Below are positions 47,240 through 53,796 of a stretch of DNA of 64,000 nt, piece by piece. The position numbers were made by a program, and so were the translations under genes. The DNA comes from an uncultured Litoreibacter sp. GTDB lineage: Bacteria > Pseudomonadota > Alphaproteobacteria > Rhodobacterales > Rhodobacteraceae. Location: assembly GCA_947492995.1 (NCBI GenBank), contig CANLOU010000002.1, positions 868,001 to 932,000 of the forward strand. The letters run 5' to 3'. Numbering within the stretch: the first letter of the stretch is position 1; every line of letters starts with the position of its first letter. The notes under the pieces were generated by a model that did no database searches, was not told the DNA's origin, and saw only the letters and a program-made list of their open reading frames with translations.

Positions 47240-48121
47240 ATGCTGGGGCGCATTTTCAGGTGGGGGGTCTTTTTGACCCTGATCGGGCTTGGGGTCTATT
47301 GGTTTATCACCATCCCAAAAACCGTTTCCGATGAACAGCTTGCGGGCTTGTCTTCAAGCTCGGAAGATGGCGAGCAGGTGTTCCACGCCGCAGGCTGCGC
47401 GTCTTGTCATGCCGCCGAAAAAGCCGAAGGCGACGCCAAGCTGGTCCTCGCAGGGGGCCAGCGCTTCCCCTCGCCCTTCGGCACCTTCGTCGCGCCCAAC
47501 ATCTCGACGGACACGAGCCACGGGATCGGCGGTTGGACCCAAGCCGAATTCGTGAGTGCCGTTGTCCAAGGCACCTCGCCTGAAGGCCAGCATTACTTTC
47601 CCGCGTTCCCCTATTCCAGCTACGCAAAAATGACGCTGCAGGATGCGGTCAACCTGCATGCCTATATGCAAACCCTGCCATCCGACGCGACGCCGAATGC
47701 CCAACATGATGTCGCCTTCCCGTTCAACATCCGGCGCAACATTGGCGGCTGGAAATTCCTGTTCCTGTCTGAGGATTGGGTAAGCGACGCCAATACGCCG
47801 GAACTGGAACGCGGCCGCTATCTGGTGGAGGCGCTGGGCCATTGCGCCGAATGCCATACGCCCCGCAACGCGCTTGGCGGGTTGGACAGGGCCAGATGGA
47901 TGCAAGGTGCGGCTGACCCCTCCGGCAAGGGCCGCATCCCCGGCATTACGCCTGCGCAACTGGGCTGGGTCGCGGCCGATATCGCGGAATACCTGAAATC
48001 GGGCTTTACCCCTGAGTTCGACACTGCCGGGGGCCACATGGTTGCCGTCGTCGAAAACACGGCCAAACTCCCCCCCGAAGACCGGGCCGCAATCGCGGCC
48101 TACCTCTTGGCCCTGCCCTAA
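47240..48121 (+). CDS. dihaem cytochrome c, dehydrogenase-subunit type
   Basis: The 293-residue protein has an N-terminal anchor (about residues 7-25, GVFLTLIGLGVYWFITI) and two c-haem sites, CASCH near residue 53 and CAECH near residue 200. Flanking text (APNISTDTSHGIGGWT; YPAFPYSSYAKMT-like; RGRYLVEALGHCAECHTPRN) matches the cytochrome subunits of membrane-bound alcohol, gluconate and sorbitol dehydrogenases. No dehydrogenase subunit is adjacent, so it may take electrons from the preceding cytochrome. It ends convergently with the caspase-like gene, sharing the CTAA stops. Confidence 0.9.
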   Translation: MLGRIFRWGVFLTLIGLGVYWFITIPKTVSDEQLAGLSSSSEDGEQVFHAAGCASCHAAEKAEGDAKLVLAGGQRFPSPFGTFVAPNISTDTSHGIGGWTQAEFVSAVVQGTSPEGQHYFPAFPYSSYAKMTLQDAVNLHAYMQTLPSDATPNAQHDVAFPFNIRRNIGGWKFLFLSEDWVSDANTPELERGRYLVEALGHCAECHTPRNALGGLDRARWMQGAADPSGKGRIPGITPAQLGWVAADIAEYLKSGFTPEFDTAGGHMVAVVENTAKLPPEDRAAIAAYLLALP

Positions 48122-50121
48122 CCCACAGGCATGTTCCACCTTGCGGCAAGAGAGCGGCCGTCCTCGGCCTCAAGGGTCGTAAACCCTGTCCGCGGCACGT
48201 TCGGAGCAATCTTTGCAAGCCCCGCCACAAGGGGTTTTGCGTGATCGGGCACCAGACCGACATAGTCCCACCCCAGCCCAATCCACGGGCAGCGCCCGCC
48301 GACACGCCCCGCAATGGCGGGCGTGCTCTGCGTGACGTAGTCAGGCAGCCCTGACGTGCCATGGTCGCGCCGTTGCGGCACGGTCGGTATTTTGACACGC
48401 AGGCCGCCCTCGCCATCGTCAACAACCGGCATGTCGCCCAACAGCACTAGGTCGAAAGGTACGGGCTGGGAATTTTGGGCAAAAAAGTAGGCGGTGCGCC
48501 GGATCGACGCTGTGTCGGCAAGCATCTGGTACAAATACGCACACAGCGCGCCGCGCGTCGGGTCGCCGTTTTTGCCAACCCGGGCCTTTGCCGCCTCGGC
48601 TTGAACATCATTGGGAGAGATTTCGCCCTCAGCGTAGCGCGAGATCAGGTCAAGCGTGGCCTGAAAGGCCTCGGGCGCGTCGCGGGAGCCATAGACCTGA
48701 AAGACATGGCCCTCCTCGTCGCGCCGAACTGCGGCCACGGCATTGGCGTAGGGGACGTAAGGCGCAAAGCGCCCGTCACTAAATTCGATCAGCAGCGGCT
48801 GGCCATCGGCCTGCGGCGTGACCATGAAGCTGGCGCGGGCCTGGGATTTGCTGGTGCGGGCCAGCGGCCCGCCGGCGGTCCAGACCTGCGCCTTCGGGTC
48901 CATGATGTGCAGGTTGGTGTCGGCGCGGTCCGTGTCGACCTGCGCCAGCGAGCGCCGCATGCGTGTGGCCTCTTGCTTGCGCCGGGCCTCGCTGGCCATG
49001 ACGGCCATGTGGCCGATCCACTGCGCCAGCTTCGTCGTCGAGACGTCGTCAGATGTCGGGTCGGCCATGTCCTTCCGCAACTCCGCGTTGCGCGACACGA
49101 TTTCACGCGCCACCCCTTCGACCGACAAGTTGAAGGGCAACGCCCCGTCCAGCCCCGACATGATGGTGCTCACGGCCAGATCACCCCACCGCGCGGCGGC
49201 GCGTTTGAACGTGTCGCTCTCCACAATGGTGCGCACCGCTTTCTTGCGGGTCTGAGCAGCAAGCGCGGGCGTGGCCTCCAAGGTGGTCACCACCCCGGCC
49301 TTTGGCCATGGCAGGTCGGGTGGCGGGCCCACAGGCGGGTTGTCCGCGTCGTACAAAACGCGCGGCGCGGGGTCGATGCTGACCTGAGGCGTCAGCTCCA
49401 GAAGGTAGTCCTTTGCCCGTTCCCGCGTCCGTTTGCGCACAAAATTTGCAAAGCCGCTGACGCTGATCTCGCCGTCAATGATGGCGTCGGGCTCCAGCCC
49501 CCACAGCACGTCAAGCACAACGCCGGAGAACAGGCATTTCCCCGGCTGCGCCGATGCGGCCTCAGACACCATGTAGGACAGCTTGCCGTCTTGGCTCGAC
49601 ATCAACAGGTCGGTCTTGGGCAGCTCGGCGGTCTCGCCATGCACGGCGATGGCGCTGCGCGTGTCCCAGCGCATCATGTCAAGATTTGGCGGGGCCTCGC
49701 GGCACGCATCGGAAATCACCGTCAGCCGGTCGATGCCATGCAGCATCAGCTGCGTGTAAAACGCGTCCGCCTTGATGCGGTATCGGTTCTCAAAAGCGTC
49801 GGTCATCAGCCACGACACCGATCCGATCTGTTGGTCGGTCAACCCGTGCCCGCAAAAGGCAAGGATCATGTGTTCCACAGGCTCGGCGCCAGCCGGAAAC
49901 AGCTCTTTGACCGCCTGCTTCAGGTCGGCATCGGTCAGCCCTTTGTTCGGGGCGTCGACCAGAGTTCGCACGTTGTCATCGCCAAAATCCGAATTCAGCG
50001 CCCATTGCCCGATCGCCTTGGCGGACTCGCGCGCGCCGTCAAGATACCCGAAGCTGGGGTCGTCGTCGTTGACCGATTTGACGGTGGCGACGCCGATCGA
50101 CAGGCAGACTTTTCTAGGCAT
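48118..50121 (-). CDS. caspase-like (peptidase C14) protein with large C-terminal region
   Basis: The 667-residue protein starts MPRKVCLSIGVATVKSVNDD at ATG 50121. Residues 1-250 form a caspase-hemoglobinase fold: FGYLDGARESAKAIGQWALN, then catalytic His92 in LAFCGHGLTD and catalytic Cys140 in TVISDACREAP, with the Asp before Cys typical of metacaspase-type peptidases. Residues about 250-667 are not recognised; they include helical segments and no transmembrane helix or WD/TPR repeat. There is no signal peptide, so it is probably cytoplasmic. The start overlaps the DUF2182 gene by eight bases, making it the last gene of a three-gene operon with the tyrosinase. Bacterial homologues act in defence or regulated proteolysis; its substrate here is unknown. 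Confidence 0.88.
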   Translation of the reverse strand: MPRKVCLSIGVATVKSVNDDDPSFGYLDGARESAKAIGQWALNSDFGDDNVRTLVDAPNKGLTDADLKQAVKELFPAGAEPVEHMILAFCGHGLTDQQIGSVSWLMTDAFENRYRIKADAFYTQLMLHGIDRLTVISDACREAPPNLDMMRWDTRSAIAVHGETAELPKTDLLMSSQDGKLSYMVSEAASAQPGKCLFSGVVLDVLWGLEPDAIIDGEISVSGFANFVRKRTRERAKDYLLELTPQVSIDPAPRVLYDADNPPVGPPPDLPWPKAGVVTTLEATPALAAQTRKKAVRTIVESDTFKRAAARWGDLAVSTIMSGLDGALPFNLSVEGVAREIVSRNAELRKDMADPTSDDVSTTKLAQWIGHMAVMASEARRKQEATRMRRSLAQVDTDRADTNLHIMDPKAQVWTAGGPLARTSKSQARASFMVTPQADGQPLLIEFSDGRFAPYVPYANAVAAVRRDEEGHVFQVYGSRDAPEAFQATLDLISRYAEGEISPNDVQAEAAKARVGKNGDPTRGALCAYLYQMLADTASIRRTAYFFAQNSQPVPFDLVLLGDMPVVDDGEGGLRVKIPTVPQRRDHGTSGLPDYVTQSTPAIAGRVGGRCPWIGLGWDYVGLVPDHAKPLVAGLAKIAPNVPRTGFTTLEAEDGRSLAARWNMPVG

Positions 50122-50887
50122 GGCGCACTCCAAACCGGACCGTGTTGAAGCTGCGCCACCAGGCGGAGCGTGCCAAGACCACGGGCCTGCGCCAGACGGT
50201 CGGGCCGTTTTGCGTCATGCGCTCTGTGACGATGACGGCGCTCACCAGGATCATCGCGATGACATGCAGCTGTCCGGGGCCTGTCATCATCGGCACCAGC
50301 ATCCAGGCCCAGCAGGCACACAGGCACAGCGCCCCGTGCGACAGCCCGAACCGCAACGTGTCGCCAAATCCGCGCCAGCCGCGAAGCGAGATGCGCGGGG
50401 ATCGGTGGGCACGGTTCAAAACATAGCGCTGGTAGGGCGATGCGCTCCACATCAAAGCCGCGGCCAGCACGACGATCAACGAGACGCCACCCCCCGTCAG
50501 GCTGCGCAGCGACAGGGTCGCGACCAGAAAAAGCGGCAAAGCCGCGATCCATATCAAGGCGTATCCGATGACAAAGCCGCAGCTTTGCGCCGCTCGGGCC
50601 CTCGGCGCGGAACAGCGCCGCACGTATCGCAAGGGTGCAACCAAAAGAAGCGGCATCATCGCGGCCAGCATAAGGCCCCAATCGCTCAACAGCGCAAACA
50701 CCGAGGTCGCGCTGATGATCCACAAAAGAATGCCCAGCGGGTCGGAAAAGAACGGCCCAAAGGCTGCGGGGTCTGAACACAACGCGGCCAGCGCGGAGGT
50801 ATCGACCCCCTTGCCCCAACCGGCAAGCACCGCCACGGCCGAGATCGTCAGGGCCGTGGTGGTTTCCGTTATACGCAGGGATGGCAT
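50114..50887 (-). CDS. DUF2182 integral membrane protein (predicted metal-binding)
   Basis: The 257-residue protein has six or so membrane segments. The WGLMLAAMMPLLLVAPLRYV segment is the DUF2182 hallmark, and the second half has YQRYVLNRAHRSPRISLRGW and GLSHGALCLCACWAWMLVPM, also typical. This family is annotated as a predicted metal-binding membrane protein and often pairs with DUF1326. Here it sits between the tyrosinase (12 bases upstream) and the caspase-like gene (8-base overlap). A role in copper or other metal supply for the tyrosinase is possible but unproven. Confidence 0.85.
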   Translation of the reverse strand: MPSLRITETTTALTISAVAVLAGWGKGVDTSALAALCSDPAAFGPFFSDPLGILLWIISATSVFALLSDWGLMLAAMMPLLLVAPLRYVRRCSAPRARAAQSCGFVIGYALIWIAALPLFLVATLSLRSLTGGGVSLIVVLAAALMWSASPYQRYVLNRAHRSPRISLRGWRGFGDTLRFGLSHGALCLCACWAWMLVPMMTGPGQLHVIAMILVSAVIVTERMTQNGPTVWRRPVVLARSAWWRSFNTVRFGVRHA

Positions 50888-50898
50888 TGCAGGCAGAC

Positions 50899-52374
50899 CT
50901 ACTGCACAACGCCGGATCTGCGGTAAAACACAATCGCCCGGATTTCGAGCGGTCGCGCGTCCTGCCCCGCAGAAACCCTCACCAAAGTGACGGGGACCTC
51001 GTTCCCGCTCAATCGCTCCGCCGCCCTCAGGTCTTGAACAAGGTCGGTGATGTCGAGCCGCGTGTTGATCCCGTTGCCACCATGCGCACCATCAACGTCG
51101 CTGGCGACGTTCAACCCGAAAAGCGGCAGCTCACCTGCAAATGTCTCAGGCGTGTCCTCGGGGTTTTCGCCGTCCTTCAGCCCGATATAGACCTCTATCA
51201 ACGATGACGGGTCCTCGCTGCGAATGCCTTCGATTGCCACATACAGTCGCGACACCCGTTCCCCTTGGGCCTGATTGCCCATGGTGGCGACCGTGTCCTG
51301 GTTGGCCACGGGATCAAGCGTGACGCGCGTGGCAACCGCCGCCTGCGTCAGCGTCAAAGCGCTGTCGTTGCTGCCGATCGGGTCTACGGTTTGCTGGGCC
51401 GATGGCCCCATTGACACACTTGCCACAACCAATTCTCCTGGTGTTACGCCGGTCCCGCTGGTCAGGCTGTCATAGGTGGGATGATACTTGCCACCGGCAA
51501 GGGTGTCGCGTCCGGTGAAGGCCTCTCCGGGGTCGGCACCGCCCACTTGCGGCATCAAGAATGTCCGGTCAAACGGCCCATCCAGCCAAAGCGGGTCGCG
51601 CACCATTGATTTGCCGGGGGTCTGCATCCAGGCCTCCCACAACCGGTCGATATTGCAGTGATGCATCCAGAAAATCGGGTCAAGAGCTGCGTATTGCGGG
51701 TTCCCCATCGCGCCGCTGATTTCCACATGGACAGTGTTATGTGGATTGCTTTCCATATCGCCGGTCCGTCCGGCAAAATGCGAAAACCCGTCGGTGCGGC
51801 CGCCGCCAAACCCGATGGTGCCGTCATTTCCGACAAGAAAATCGCTTTCCTTCATGGCCTCCAGGTTGATGCCGCGCCTCGGCTGCGGCGGGCGCAGCTC
51901 GGTCACATTGCTCCATCGGCGGTACTTTATCAGCGGGTTGGCGGCCCCATCCGGCAGGGTCGGGTCCAGCAGCGCGCCGGGCACTTTGCGCGCATCGCCA
52001 TTGGCATCGTTGAGGTAGTTCCAATAGGGCAAAGCCCAGTCTCTGCCGGTCAGCTCTTTCACCTTGGCGGCGACAATGGCTTCAAACGCGGCCAGATACC
52101 CACGGTGCCAAGACAAAAAGAGCCAGCTTTGGTGTTGGCACTGATTGCCGTAAGGGCCGTCACTGGTCTTTATTTCGTCGGGGATTTCGTCCGCTGCCGC
52201 CACAATGCCATTGGCGGCCCATCCGTTTGCGTCACATCCGTGAATGCCCGCCAAAAAGCGCCAGCTGTTGCGGTCTGATACGGGAAGTTTGTCCAGCTCT
52301 GCCATCGCCATGGCGTAATCGAGCATCGTTTCGTTCCACCCATCGCCGAGTTCTGCAACGTCTTGCCTAATCAT
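50899..52374 (-). CDS. tyrosinase-family dicopper oxidase with C-terminal beta domain
   Basis: The 491-residue protein has all expected copper ligands. CuA: His45 (LAGIHGCD), His81 and His90 in the H-x8-H element (QHQSWLFLSWHRGYLAAFE). CuB: His212 and His216 in PHNTVHVEI and His238/239 in DPIFWMHHCNIDRLWEAW. This is the phenol/catechol oxidase core (about 1-290). Residues about 330-491 form a probable beta-sandwich, reminiscent of the C-terminal shielding domain of plant polyphenol oxidases. No signal peptide is seen. ATG 52374 has GGAG seven bases upstream; 52434 is an alternative. It is first in the operon with DUF2182 and the caspase-like protease. Confidence 0.93.
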   Translation of the reverse strand: MIRQDVAELGDGWNETMLDYAMAMAELDKLPVSDRNSWRFLAGIHGCDANGWAANGIVAAADEIPDEIKTSDGPYGNQCQHQSWLFLSWHRGYLAAFEAIVAAKVKELTGRDWALPYWNYLNDANGDARKVPGALLDPTLPDGAANPLIKYRRWSNVTELRPPQPRRGINLEAMKESDFLVGNDGTIGFGGGRTDGFSHFAGRTGDMESNPHNTVHVEISGAMGNPQYAALDPIFWMHHCNIDRLWEAWMQTPGKSMVRDPLWLDGPFDRTFLMPQVGGADPGEAFTGRDTLAGGKYHPTYDSLTSGTGVTPGELVVASVSMGPSAQQTVDPIGSNDSALTLTQAAVATRVTLDPVANQDTVATMGNQAQGERVSRLYVAIEGIRSEDPSSLIEVYIGLKDGENPEDTPETFAGELPLFGLNVASDVDGAHGGNGINTRLDITDLVQDLRAAERLSGNEVPVTLVRVSAGQDARPLEIRAIVFYRRSGVVQ

Positions 52375-52515
52375 ATCGTTCTCCAAAAGTGCTTGTCTTT
52401 TCAAATGCGGCAAGTCTGGCACGAAGGCCTGCAAAAAAACAATTCTAAAGTGAGATGGCGAAAAACGCAGGGCGGCAAAGGTCGCGGGCCGCGCGGCCAG
52501 ACGCTTGAAGCGAGG

Positions 52516-53796
52516 CTAGCCAGAGATCAGCGCGCTCAGCCCCGCAACGTCGACACTGCCCGCATCCAACACGGCCCGCTTCAGCGCTGACGCCCGGTCG
52601 CCAATCAAGGCCTGCGCCTTGGCCATCAGCTTGGCCTCGCGCGTCTCCAGCAGGATCGACGCAGAAATATCTGCCGCTGCGGTATGTGTCTTGCCGTCGA
52701 TCACTGCCGAGATGCCACAGGCCGTCTCGGCAATAGCGTCGTTGCCAACGACCGCCACTTTGTCGCGCAAGGCGCATAGGCTGGCCTCCGCAGCCAGCGC
52801 GTCCGAGAACGTGTCCAGCCGCGCCGTGTCATGGCCCAACAGCACCAAAGCCGCGATCAACCGGTACGAAAACTTGGCCTCCAACCCCGTCTCGGGCGCT
52901 GGCTTGTCGCACACGCTCAGCCAGCGCGGGTTGGTAAGCACTTCGATCGAGGACACCTCCCCCGCAGGCAACTCATGCAACGCCTCAATCATCGCATGGG
53001 TTCCGTGGCAGCAGGCGTGGTATTTGTGGCTGATCTCGTCGATCATCCACACCTCTCCCATCGCCTCAAACCCGCCGTCACTGTTCGCCCCGCCATGCGT
53101 TTCGCCAAATCCCAGCGGGCCTTCCAGGGCGGCGGGGTTGCTCACAAAGCCCGCCTTGGCCAGCAGCGCAACTTCAACGCCCGCAGCCGCAGCCGCGCCT
53201 GCGTTATAGGGTTTGCCCATCGTGCCGAACTGCGCCTTCAATCCCGCCGCTTTGGTTGCGGCCAGTCCGATGGCGTGGCGCATCTCGCCTGCGTCACATC
53301 CCAAAAGCCGCGCGCAGGCCATGGCTGCGCCAAAGCAGCCCGCCGTGCCCGTCTGGTGGAACCCCATCTGGTAATGCCCGCGCCCCAGCCAGACACCAAT
53401 CCGGGTCGAGGCCTCCACGCCAATCAGACACGCCTGCAAAAAGGCCTCCCCCGACGCGCCAACTTGTTGCGCCGTGGCCAAGGCCGCCGACACGACGGCC
53501 ACCGAAGGGTGCCCGATATGGGCAAAATGCGTGTCGTCGTAATCAAGGGCGTGGCTGACGGTCCCGTTCACCAAAGCCGCCCCCCGCGCGGGCGCGCGGC
53601 CCCCGCCAAACAGCGCCGCGCAGCCATCGGCCCCCTCGCCCAGCACCATGTCGCGCACCAGGATGGACACGGGCTCTGACACGCCCGCCATCCCGCAGGC
53701 CGCCCAGTCCAGCACCGACAAGCGCATCATCCCAAGCGCCTCGGCGTCGCCGCAGCCAGTCACCGCAAACGCGGCAAGCCGGACCGTGACGCTCAC
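52516..53796 (-). CDS. MmgE/PrpD family protein
   Basis: The 426-residue protein belongs to the 2-methylcitrate dehydratase / cis-aconitate decarboxylase (IDS epimerase) superfamily. Family text includes ALVNGTVSHALDYDDTHFAH, HPSVAVVSAALA, HQTGTAGCFGAAMA, GLAATKAAGLKAQFGTMGKP with active-site Lys/His, and YHACCHGTHAMIEAL. In this class members act in propionate, itaconate or iminodisuccinate metabolism. No prp genes are adjacent, so the substrate is open. Its start overlaps the stop of the upstream SRPBCC gene by four bases. Confidence 0.92.
   Translation of the reverse strand: MSVTVRLAAFAVTGCGDAEALGMMRLSVLDWAACGMAGVSEPVSILVRDMVLGEGADGCAALFGGGRAPARGAALVNGTVSHALDYDDTHFAHIGHPSVAVVSAALATAQQVGASGEAFLQACLIGVEASTRIGVWLGRGHYQMGFHQTGTAGCFGAAMACARLLGCDAGEMRHAIGLAATKAAGLKAQFGTMGKPYNAGAAAAAGVEVALLAKAGFVSNPAALEGPLGFGETHGGANSDGGFEAMGEVWMIDEISHKYHACCHGTHAMIEALHELPAGEVSSIEVLTNPRWLSVCDKPAPETGLEAKFSYRLIAALVLLGHDTARLDTFSDALAAEASLCALRDKVAVVGNDAIAETACGISAVIDGKTHTAAADISASILLETREAKLMAKAQALIGDRASALKRAVLDAGSVDVAGLSALISG

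Follow-up and report, generated by a model that had tools for sequence, protein, structure and literature searches.

A stretch of 64,000 nucleotides from a Litoreibacter sp. (contig CANLOU010000002.1, positions 868,001-932,000; hereafter the window, meaning this whole stretch) carries three genes that encode a tyrosinase, a membrane protein of the PpoB2 family and a caspase-like protease (Table 1). The same three genes are found together in distant bacteria, and the trio is a conserved mobile cassette that has spread horizontally. The best single explanation for it, which we hold with about even confidence, is a protease-gated phenol oxidase unit, in which the caspase-like protein would unlock a latent pro-tyrosinase.

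To define the set of operon relatives, loci were chosen by the identity of the caspase alone (at least 38%, full length), which gave nine loci (L004, L034-L038, L130, L131 and L132; ten with the window) from Rhodobacterales, Mesorhizobium, Bradyrhizobium and Pseudomonas. The tyrosinase and PpoB2 genes lie directly upstream of the caspase gene in all nine. The original prediction had read the trio as an operon and would have been contradicted had the genes been neighbours in no relative; in fact all three genes recur in one and the same arrangement in 9/9 relatives, a strong conserved association. With the caspase as query, annotated plasmids yielded 11 records, the best being from Mesorhizobium sp. 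AR10, where the tyrosinase, the DUF2182 protein and the caspase (annotated as "hypothetical") occur in this order with 51, 42 and 40% identity, respectively. Scanning genome contigs with a four-sequence caspase alignment, a pattern-based search that can miss relatives, found 10 relatives. Five of these (38-47% identity, full length) carry the trio, in Rhodobacterales BW5, Pseudomonas GM18, P. chlororaphis, Mesorhizobium waimense and Bradyrhizobium SRS-191; in four of the remainder the caspase gene is followed immediately by one for an alpha/beta hydrolase, and L040 (Roseateles) shows neither partner within the stretch. Among 249 Pseudomonas genomes the operon-type caspase was present in four, one of them already counted, and the other three also have tyrosinase and PpoB2 genes upstream.

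The caspase is otherwise rare. It was found in 1 of 61 relatives, this being the window's own genome, and in none of 20 congeners (three of them less than 90% complete). Equally, only 2 of 394 genomes of the family carry it, the second (G261) with the hydrolase partner, and in a sample of the class 19 of 385 genomes match the caspase profile, only the window's own genome and G502 (hydrolase type) scoring above 100 bits. The open reading frames that flank L034, L035, L036 and L038 are unlike one another by eye. In the window the cassette lies between a cytochrome c gene and an mmgE/prpD-like gene, and 1.5 kb was fetched from each of 17 other congeners with the cytochrome c gene. The two flanking genes abut tail to tail in three of them (L085, L088, L101), an empty site; a coq10-like gene stands next to cytochrome c instead in four (L086, L087, L089, L090), and the remaining ten show neither arrangement inside the fetched 1.5 kb. 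From the differing flanks and the empty site in three congeners it follows that the three genes travel together. A foreign base composition of the insert was also considered, and its G+C content (62.7% vs 60.9% for the window) gives no sign of recent arrival; none of five proteins scanned matched a PHROGs family. In a tree of 18 rows the operon tyrosinases are a single clade (support 100/100), with L044 and L080 as its neighbours. When each of the three proteins was given its own tree, from six operons plus an outgroup, all agreed that the window pairs with L034, and L035 pairs with L036; they resolve nothing further.

The tyrosinase combines a copper-binding core with a beta-rich C-terminal lid, and both parts are as originally proposed. 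All six copper histidines (H45, H81, H90, H212, H216 and H239) are invariant in the nine intact operon tyrosinases, which together with the PF00264 match bears out a full ligand set. The extra C-terminal domain is of the shielding-lid type by its PF25271 match and by Foldseek, and its placeholder phenylalanine F419, in the motif LFGL, aligns with F397 of HcTyr1 from Hahella and is likewise invariant in 9/9. HcTyr1 (8b74) is the nearest solved chain by sequence (expect value (E) 3e-56), and it is also the top Foldseek match of the modelled lid, most blocks of which have a predicted local distance difference test score (pLDDT) of 70-90, with one poor loop at about residues 420-437. The same search lists the isolated C-terminal domain of the apple enzyme MdPPO1 (6elt/6elv, target TM-score 0.56). 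By eye, and with no predictor run, neither the tyrosinase nor the caspase-like protein shows a signal peptide, so the tyrosinase is probably a cytosolic, latent phenol oxidase of the type-3 copper kind. Its latency is likely. In each of five genomes checked, the operon tyrosinase is the sole PF00264 gene. The operon tyrosinase gene of Mesorhizobium waimense (L037:3024-4506) reads in two frames, through real damage or a sequencing error.

Table 1 Features of the three-gene cassette, its proteins and its flanks, in window positions.
Feature	Positions	Strand	Detail or basis
Tyrosinase gene	50899..52374	-	491 amino acids, ATG start, GGAG upstream
Tyrosinase core, residues 36-251, six copper histidines	51622..52269	-	PF00264, E 5e-37
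Tyrosinase linker, residues 252-329, presumed cleavage place	51388..51621	-	conservation in operon set
Tyrosinase lid, residues 330-485, DUF7868, beta-rich	50920..51387	-	PF25271, E 8e-38; Foldseek
Placeholder Phe F419 of the lid	51118-51120	-	aligns with HcTyr1 F397; motif LFGL
PpoB2-family (DUF2182, COG5486) membrane copper chaperone gene	50114..50887	-	257 amino acids, PF09948
Caspase-like protease gene	48118..50121	-	667 amino acids; PADLOC 'caspase', structure model
Catalytic fold of caspase-like protein	about residues 1-260	-	structure model
Catalytic dyad, motifs GHG and SDAC (H92 codon 49846-49848, C140 codon 49702-49704)	49702..49848	-	
Poorly modelled region of caspase-like protein	about residues 279-342	-	structure model
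C-terminal domain of caspase-like protein, residues 400-667	48121..48924	-	conserved with both partner types
Three-gene cassette	48122..52515	.	bounded by cytochrome c gene and mmgE/prpD-like gene
Cytochrome c gene, cassette flank	47240-48121	+	
mmgE/prpD-like gene, cassette flank	52516-53796	-	

The linker between core and lid is well kept. Across the nine operon tyrosinases 27 of its 78 positions are invariant, compared with 85 of the core's 216 and 29 of the lid's 156, and the invariant positions include K255, R270 and G307-T308-G309-V310. Among six operon tyrosinases, pairwise identity averages 0.63 for the core, 0.62 for the linker (252-329) and 0.51 for the lid; the corresponding values in five DUF7868 relatives that lack the caspase (L044, L045, L046, L079, L080) are 0.44, 0.27 and 0.31. 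At like core identity only two caspase-less pairs were usable, so that this contrast rests on few controls: eleven operon pairs with cores of 0.55-0.65 have linkers of 0.53-0.68, and the caspase-less pair L045-L079 has a core of 0.54 and a linker of 0.29. A further operon pair has 0.68 (core) and 0.69 (linker) and another 0.82 and 0.78. When more relatives of the caspase-less L080 were sought as controls in 120 genomes, only L080 itself was found. Such conservation would be the trace expected of a recognised cut site.

The middle protein matches PF09948 (E 2e-21; 77.4 bits vs a cut-off of 28.7), a family that Pfam now names PpoB2 and describes as a copper chaperone. Its gene lies directly 3' of the tyrosinase gene, 11 bases away in the window and adjacent in the other nine loci. 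The placement of the three minus-strand genes at 48118..52374 and the 8-base overlap of the second and third genes agree with the original prediction, and only the first gap (50888-50898) is 11 bases, not 12. Nine positions (M73, M77, M78, H184, C188, C192, M196, H208 and M212) are invariant in 7/7 operon PpoB2 proteins, and these Met, His and Cys residues could bind metal. PpoB2 of Marinomonas mediterranea has a part in transferring copper specifically to the tyrosinase PpoB1, encoded with it in one operon (PMC2855505). The proposal that the DUF2182 protein handles metal is thus sound for the family, and copper transfer to the tyrosinase is predicted here.

The caspase fold of the third protein and its intact His92/Cys140 dyad, both claimed beforehand, are borne out. 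Its structure model (mean pLDDT 76, predicted template modelling score 0.77) has MALT1 (8v4x, E 2.9e-7) as its top Foldseek match, followed by plant metacaspases and a trypanosome metacaspase. H92, C140 and D138 are invariant in 11/11 aligned relatives, and the protein is a putative protease. It matches the PADLOC 'caspase' profile at E 5e-6; no significant match was found in Pfam or NCBIfam, and Pfam Peptidase_C14, which has no match in the window protein, matches 2 of 11 aligned members (best E 1e-4). A search of solved structures with the window sequence alone gave only three kinase matches (E 0.7 or worse), and a profile of the caspase found metacaspase-4 (E 1e-4). An Asp two residues before the catalytic Cys is a feature of paracaspases and metacaspases that cut after Arg or Lys. 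The position of D138 two residues before C140 hints at this specificity. Among the best 50 of 282 Foldseek matches, given without aligned ranges, no solved relative of the C-terminal domain (residues 400-667) was recognised, and the MALT1 chains there include caspase-Ig3 constructs. A second caspase-like protein is encoded in the window's genome (contig C3, L032:1441-2937), with Sel1-like repeats by eye and a different C-terminal part.

The caspase is not confined to tyrosinases. A caspase relative followed by an alpha/beta hydrolase of about 290 amino acids occurs in 13 loci (L002, L005-L011, L039, L041, L042, L043, L120), on Ti and rhizobial plasmids and in Phytobacter, Nitrospira and others; L005, L009 and L011 are near copies, three of the 11 plasmid matches (H4, H5, H9) were left out of the set, and the caspase annotation in L010 is shorter than its match. 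With a tyrosinase in some loci and a hydrolase in 13, the caspase family swaps enzyme partners. No PADLOC family was found for the hydrolase in three tested. The neighbours were scanned with PADLOC in five loci of this type (L005, L006, L010, L039, L042). In Phytobacter ursingii (L039:2455-10642) the pair lies about 1.8 kb from the anti-phage genes IetA and IetS, and on a Sinorhizobium meliloti plasmid (L010:689-7480) an S8 protease and a metallo-beta-lactamase (MBL) protein of the LmuA/Avs1a kind precede it; L006 has a capP-like neighbour, L042 a weak Csa3 match and L005 no PADLOC match among its neighbours. L010 thus holds two possible protease-proenzyme pairs side by side. The sole caspase relative found among viral contigs (L120:1-7319) is a caspase-hydrolase pair between tape measure/tail assembly chaperone genes and minor tail/tail terminator genes.

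Tyrosinases were also found beside other proteases. We compared 14 annotated plasmid tyrosinase loci (L004, L044-L048, L107-L114). L004 has the caspase, and 8 of the 13 others have an annotated peptidase within about 5 kb of the tyrosinase. In Sinorhizobium americanum CCGM7 plasmid B (L048:3234-6161) a subtilase is fused to the tyrosinase (S8 at 179-461, tyrosinase from 546) and is followed by a trypsin-like and another S8 protease gene; a 93% identical copy of the fusion occurs in S. medicae (H63). A trypsin gene lies 4 bases downstream of the tyrosinase in Paracoccus (L047), an S8 protease gene 27 bases downstream in Bradyrhizobium septentrionale (L108), an M4 protease one gene away in S. 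meliloti (L107) and R. phaseoli (L112), and S8 and trypsin genes upstream on the other strand in R. rhizogenes (L111), with looser peptidase neighbourhoods in L044 and L045. DUF7868 is present in the tyrosinases of L112, L044 and L045 and weakly in that of L047, the L111 tyrosinase has a plant-type PPO1_KFDV domain, and no lid domain was found in Pfam for those of L107, L108 and the fusion. By a manual count, peptidases make up 10 of 109 flanking genes vs 1 of 173 control genes (Fisher p 4e-4), the few controls coming from five stretches on five of these plasmids; when the three loci to which the fusion or its label had led are dropped, the figure is 6 of 86 (p 0.006). On the B. septentrionale plasmid (L108:4468-9952) the tyrosinase, the S8 protease and AbiEii/AbiEi toxin-antitoxin genes stand in a row.

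If the tyrosinase is gated by the caspase, it would be made in the cytosol as a latent proenzyme, with the DUF7868 lid plugging the dicopper site through F419, and PpoB2 in the membrane would load its copper. The paracaspase-like protease would stay inactive, perhaps restrained by its C-terminal domain, until it is triggered; it would then cut the linker (residues 252-329) and free the active site, and the cytosolic quinones so formed may damage or cross-link the cell's own components or those of an invader. We infer the cleavage, the activation, the trigger and the outcome in defence or stress-induced arrest. The reading is supported by the precedent of the canu system, in which a caspase activates its partner enzyme (PMC12799240). 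Several observations weigh against it. The caspase-less pair L044-L080, with a core of 0.65, has a linker of 0.52, slightly less than the 0.53-0.68 of the operon pairs, and in two operon pairs cores of 0.73 and 0.70 go with linkers of 0.58 and 0.54. R270 and GTG also occur in L044 and L080, the two closest caspase-less tyrosinases, so a cut site unique to caspase operons (R270, GTGV) was not upheld. The nearest solved relative, HcTyr1, sheds its lid slowly without a protease (PMC11609597). A tyrosinase model built with five sequences had no usable core (mean pLDDT 46) and only the lid fold could be used, so that the lid could not be examined over the dicopper site. The plasmid loci above were picked from match lists and not at random. 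In a genome sample of 25 tyrosinase or DUF7868 loci (21 from 19 class genomes with PF00264, the window's own left out, and those of 4 out of 7 phylum genomes with DUF7868) queried with caspase, S8 and trypsin, there was no caspase and a single trypsin three genes away (L069). In this sample thermolysin-type proteases were not queried, several loci end at a contig edge and the tyrosinase of L077 was missed by the query; protease neighbours are not a general tyrosinase feature. Finally, ten proteins flanking the operon loci (two of the window, three of L034, three of L035 and two of L038, with L036 left out because its surrounding reading frames could not be called reliably in the G+C-rich DNA) were scanned with PADLOC at E 1e-4; the one match was a LolE-like membrane part in L034, and a defence-island reading of the window locus is not supported.

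Tentatively, the trio could be a bacterial counterpart of the prophenoloxidase response of arthropods, a mobile immune or self-destruct module in which the caspase senses an intruder and unlocks the cytosolic pro-tyrosinase, whose quinones kill or arrest the cell; it would then be one branch of a wider class that couples tyrosinases to caspase, subtilisin, trypsin or thermolysin proteases, within which the caspase family exchanges its client enzyme. The main reason for the idea of defence is that the hydrolase-type kin of the caspase sit in anti-phage and prophage settings, and the tyrosinase branch is not directly concerned. A copper or phenol stress or melanin operon that plays no part in immunity seems rather unlikely. 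Here the tyrosinase and PpoB2 would serve pigment formation or phenol detoxification, and the caspase would mature, regulate or degrade the tyrosinase or PpoB2. This would fit Marinomonas, where PpoB1-PpoB2 makes melanin (PMC2855505), the existence of tyrosinase-PpoB2 pairs that lack this caspase and the ten flanking proteins, among which no defence gene was recognised; it sits poorly with the patchy, mobile distribution (0/20 congeners; 4/249 Pseudomonas genomes) and with the more distant caspase kin in prophage and anti-phage settings.

The order of events may also be reversed, with the tyrosinase as the sensor or signal maker, through quinones or oxidised phenols, and the caspase as an executioner, turned on by the tyrosinase, that cuts other proteins of the cell. 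The lid would then open by itself as in HcTyr1, which is activated without a protease (PMC11609597), the large conserved C-terminal domain of the caspase could do the sensing, and the hydrolase partner is explained equally well by a caspase that receives input from two enzymes and by one that gates both. We consider this unlikely, since conservation of the linker matches that of the core among the operon tyrosinases and the canu caspase acts on its partner enzyme (PMC12799240). That the caspase merely shares a transcript and acts on unrelated targets is very improbable. Gene adjacency alone is no proof of joint function, but the neighbours are kept in 9/9 relatives across Rhodobacterales, two rhizobial genera and Pseudomonas despite changing flanks, and the insertion holds exactly these three genes.

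If the caspase does gate the tyrosinase, phenol oxidases in bacteria are, like those of arthropods, under the control of dedicated proteolysis, and an oxidase would join the proenzymes known to be switched on by bacterial caspases. The caspase would also be a natural activator for lidded bacterial tyrosinases, the available text of the HcTyr1 and V. spinosum papers naming no dedicated protease gene, and the tyrosinase would be a client for a caspase subfamily for which we found none described. The swap of partners, tyrosinase or hydrolase, makes the question directly testable.

The remark in the original prediction that its author was aware of no described system of this kind stands in part, for each half of the unit has a counterpart. 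Among the open-literature papers listed, by title and the beginning of the abstract and with subscription papers outside the scope, no report was found that joins a bacterial tyrosinase with a caspase-like protein. Arthropod prophenoloxidase is a hemocyanin-type oxidase, of another family than the tyrosinase here. The arthropod cascade is thus a functional likeness only: it places a latent phenol oxidase and a dedicated protease in immunity, and this is a serine protease cascade (PMC11818254), where the protease linked here has a caspase fold. Further counterparts are the bacterial tyrosinases with a C-terminal lid and a placeholder residue. Of HcTyr1/HcTyr2 from Hahella sp. CCB MM4, it is HcTyr1 whose placeholder Phe397 corresponds to F419 (PMC11609597; 8B74); its lid is lost without a protease, the lid-free, slowly self-processed HcTyr1 is about ten times more active, and the available text names no dedicated protease gene, unlike the operon here. 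The V. spinosum tyrosinase is built in the same way, its core reaching 213 U/mg vs 0.67 U/mg for the full-length enzyme, again with no dedicated protease gene named in that part of the report (PMC10526336).

The pair ppoB1-ppoB2 of Marinomonas mediterranea likewise joins a tyrosinase to a COG5486 copper-transfer protein, but the available text describes two genes and mentions no caspase-like protein (PMC2855505); the title of the cited cloning paper calls the tyrosinase SDS (sodium dodecyl sulfate)-activated, which suggests latency. The anti-phage system canu couples a MALT1-like caspase to a proenzyme, and there activation has been shown and the partners are co-evolving and mobile (PMC12799240). 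Its caspase has an immunoglobulin (Ig)-like fold and a CanB partner. Its proenzyme is an MBL-fold nuclease with gating insertions, whereas the operon here has a tyrosinase and PpoB2; because the partner enzyme differs, we do not class the operon as a canu member. The word tyrosinase is absent from the canu main text and from PMC8195603, as far as these were available, and the canu authors expect other classes of proteolytically activated enzymes (PMC12799240). Tyrosinase-PpoB2 pairs and a bacterial proenzyme activated by a caspase were both on record, and what is new is their combination in one unit.

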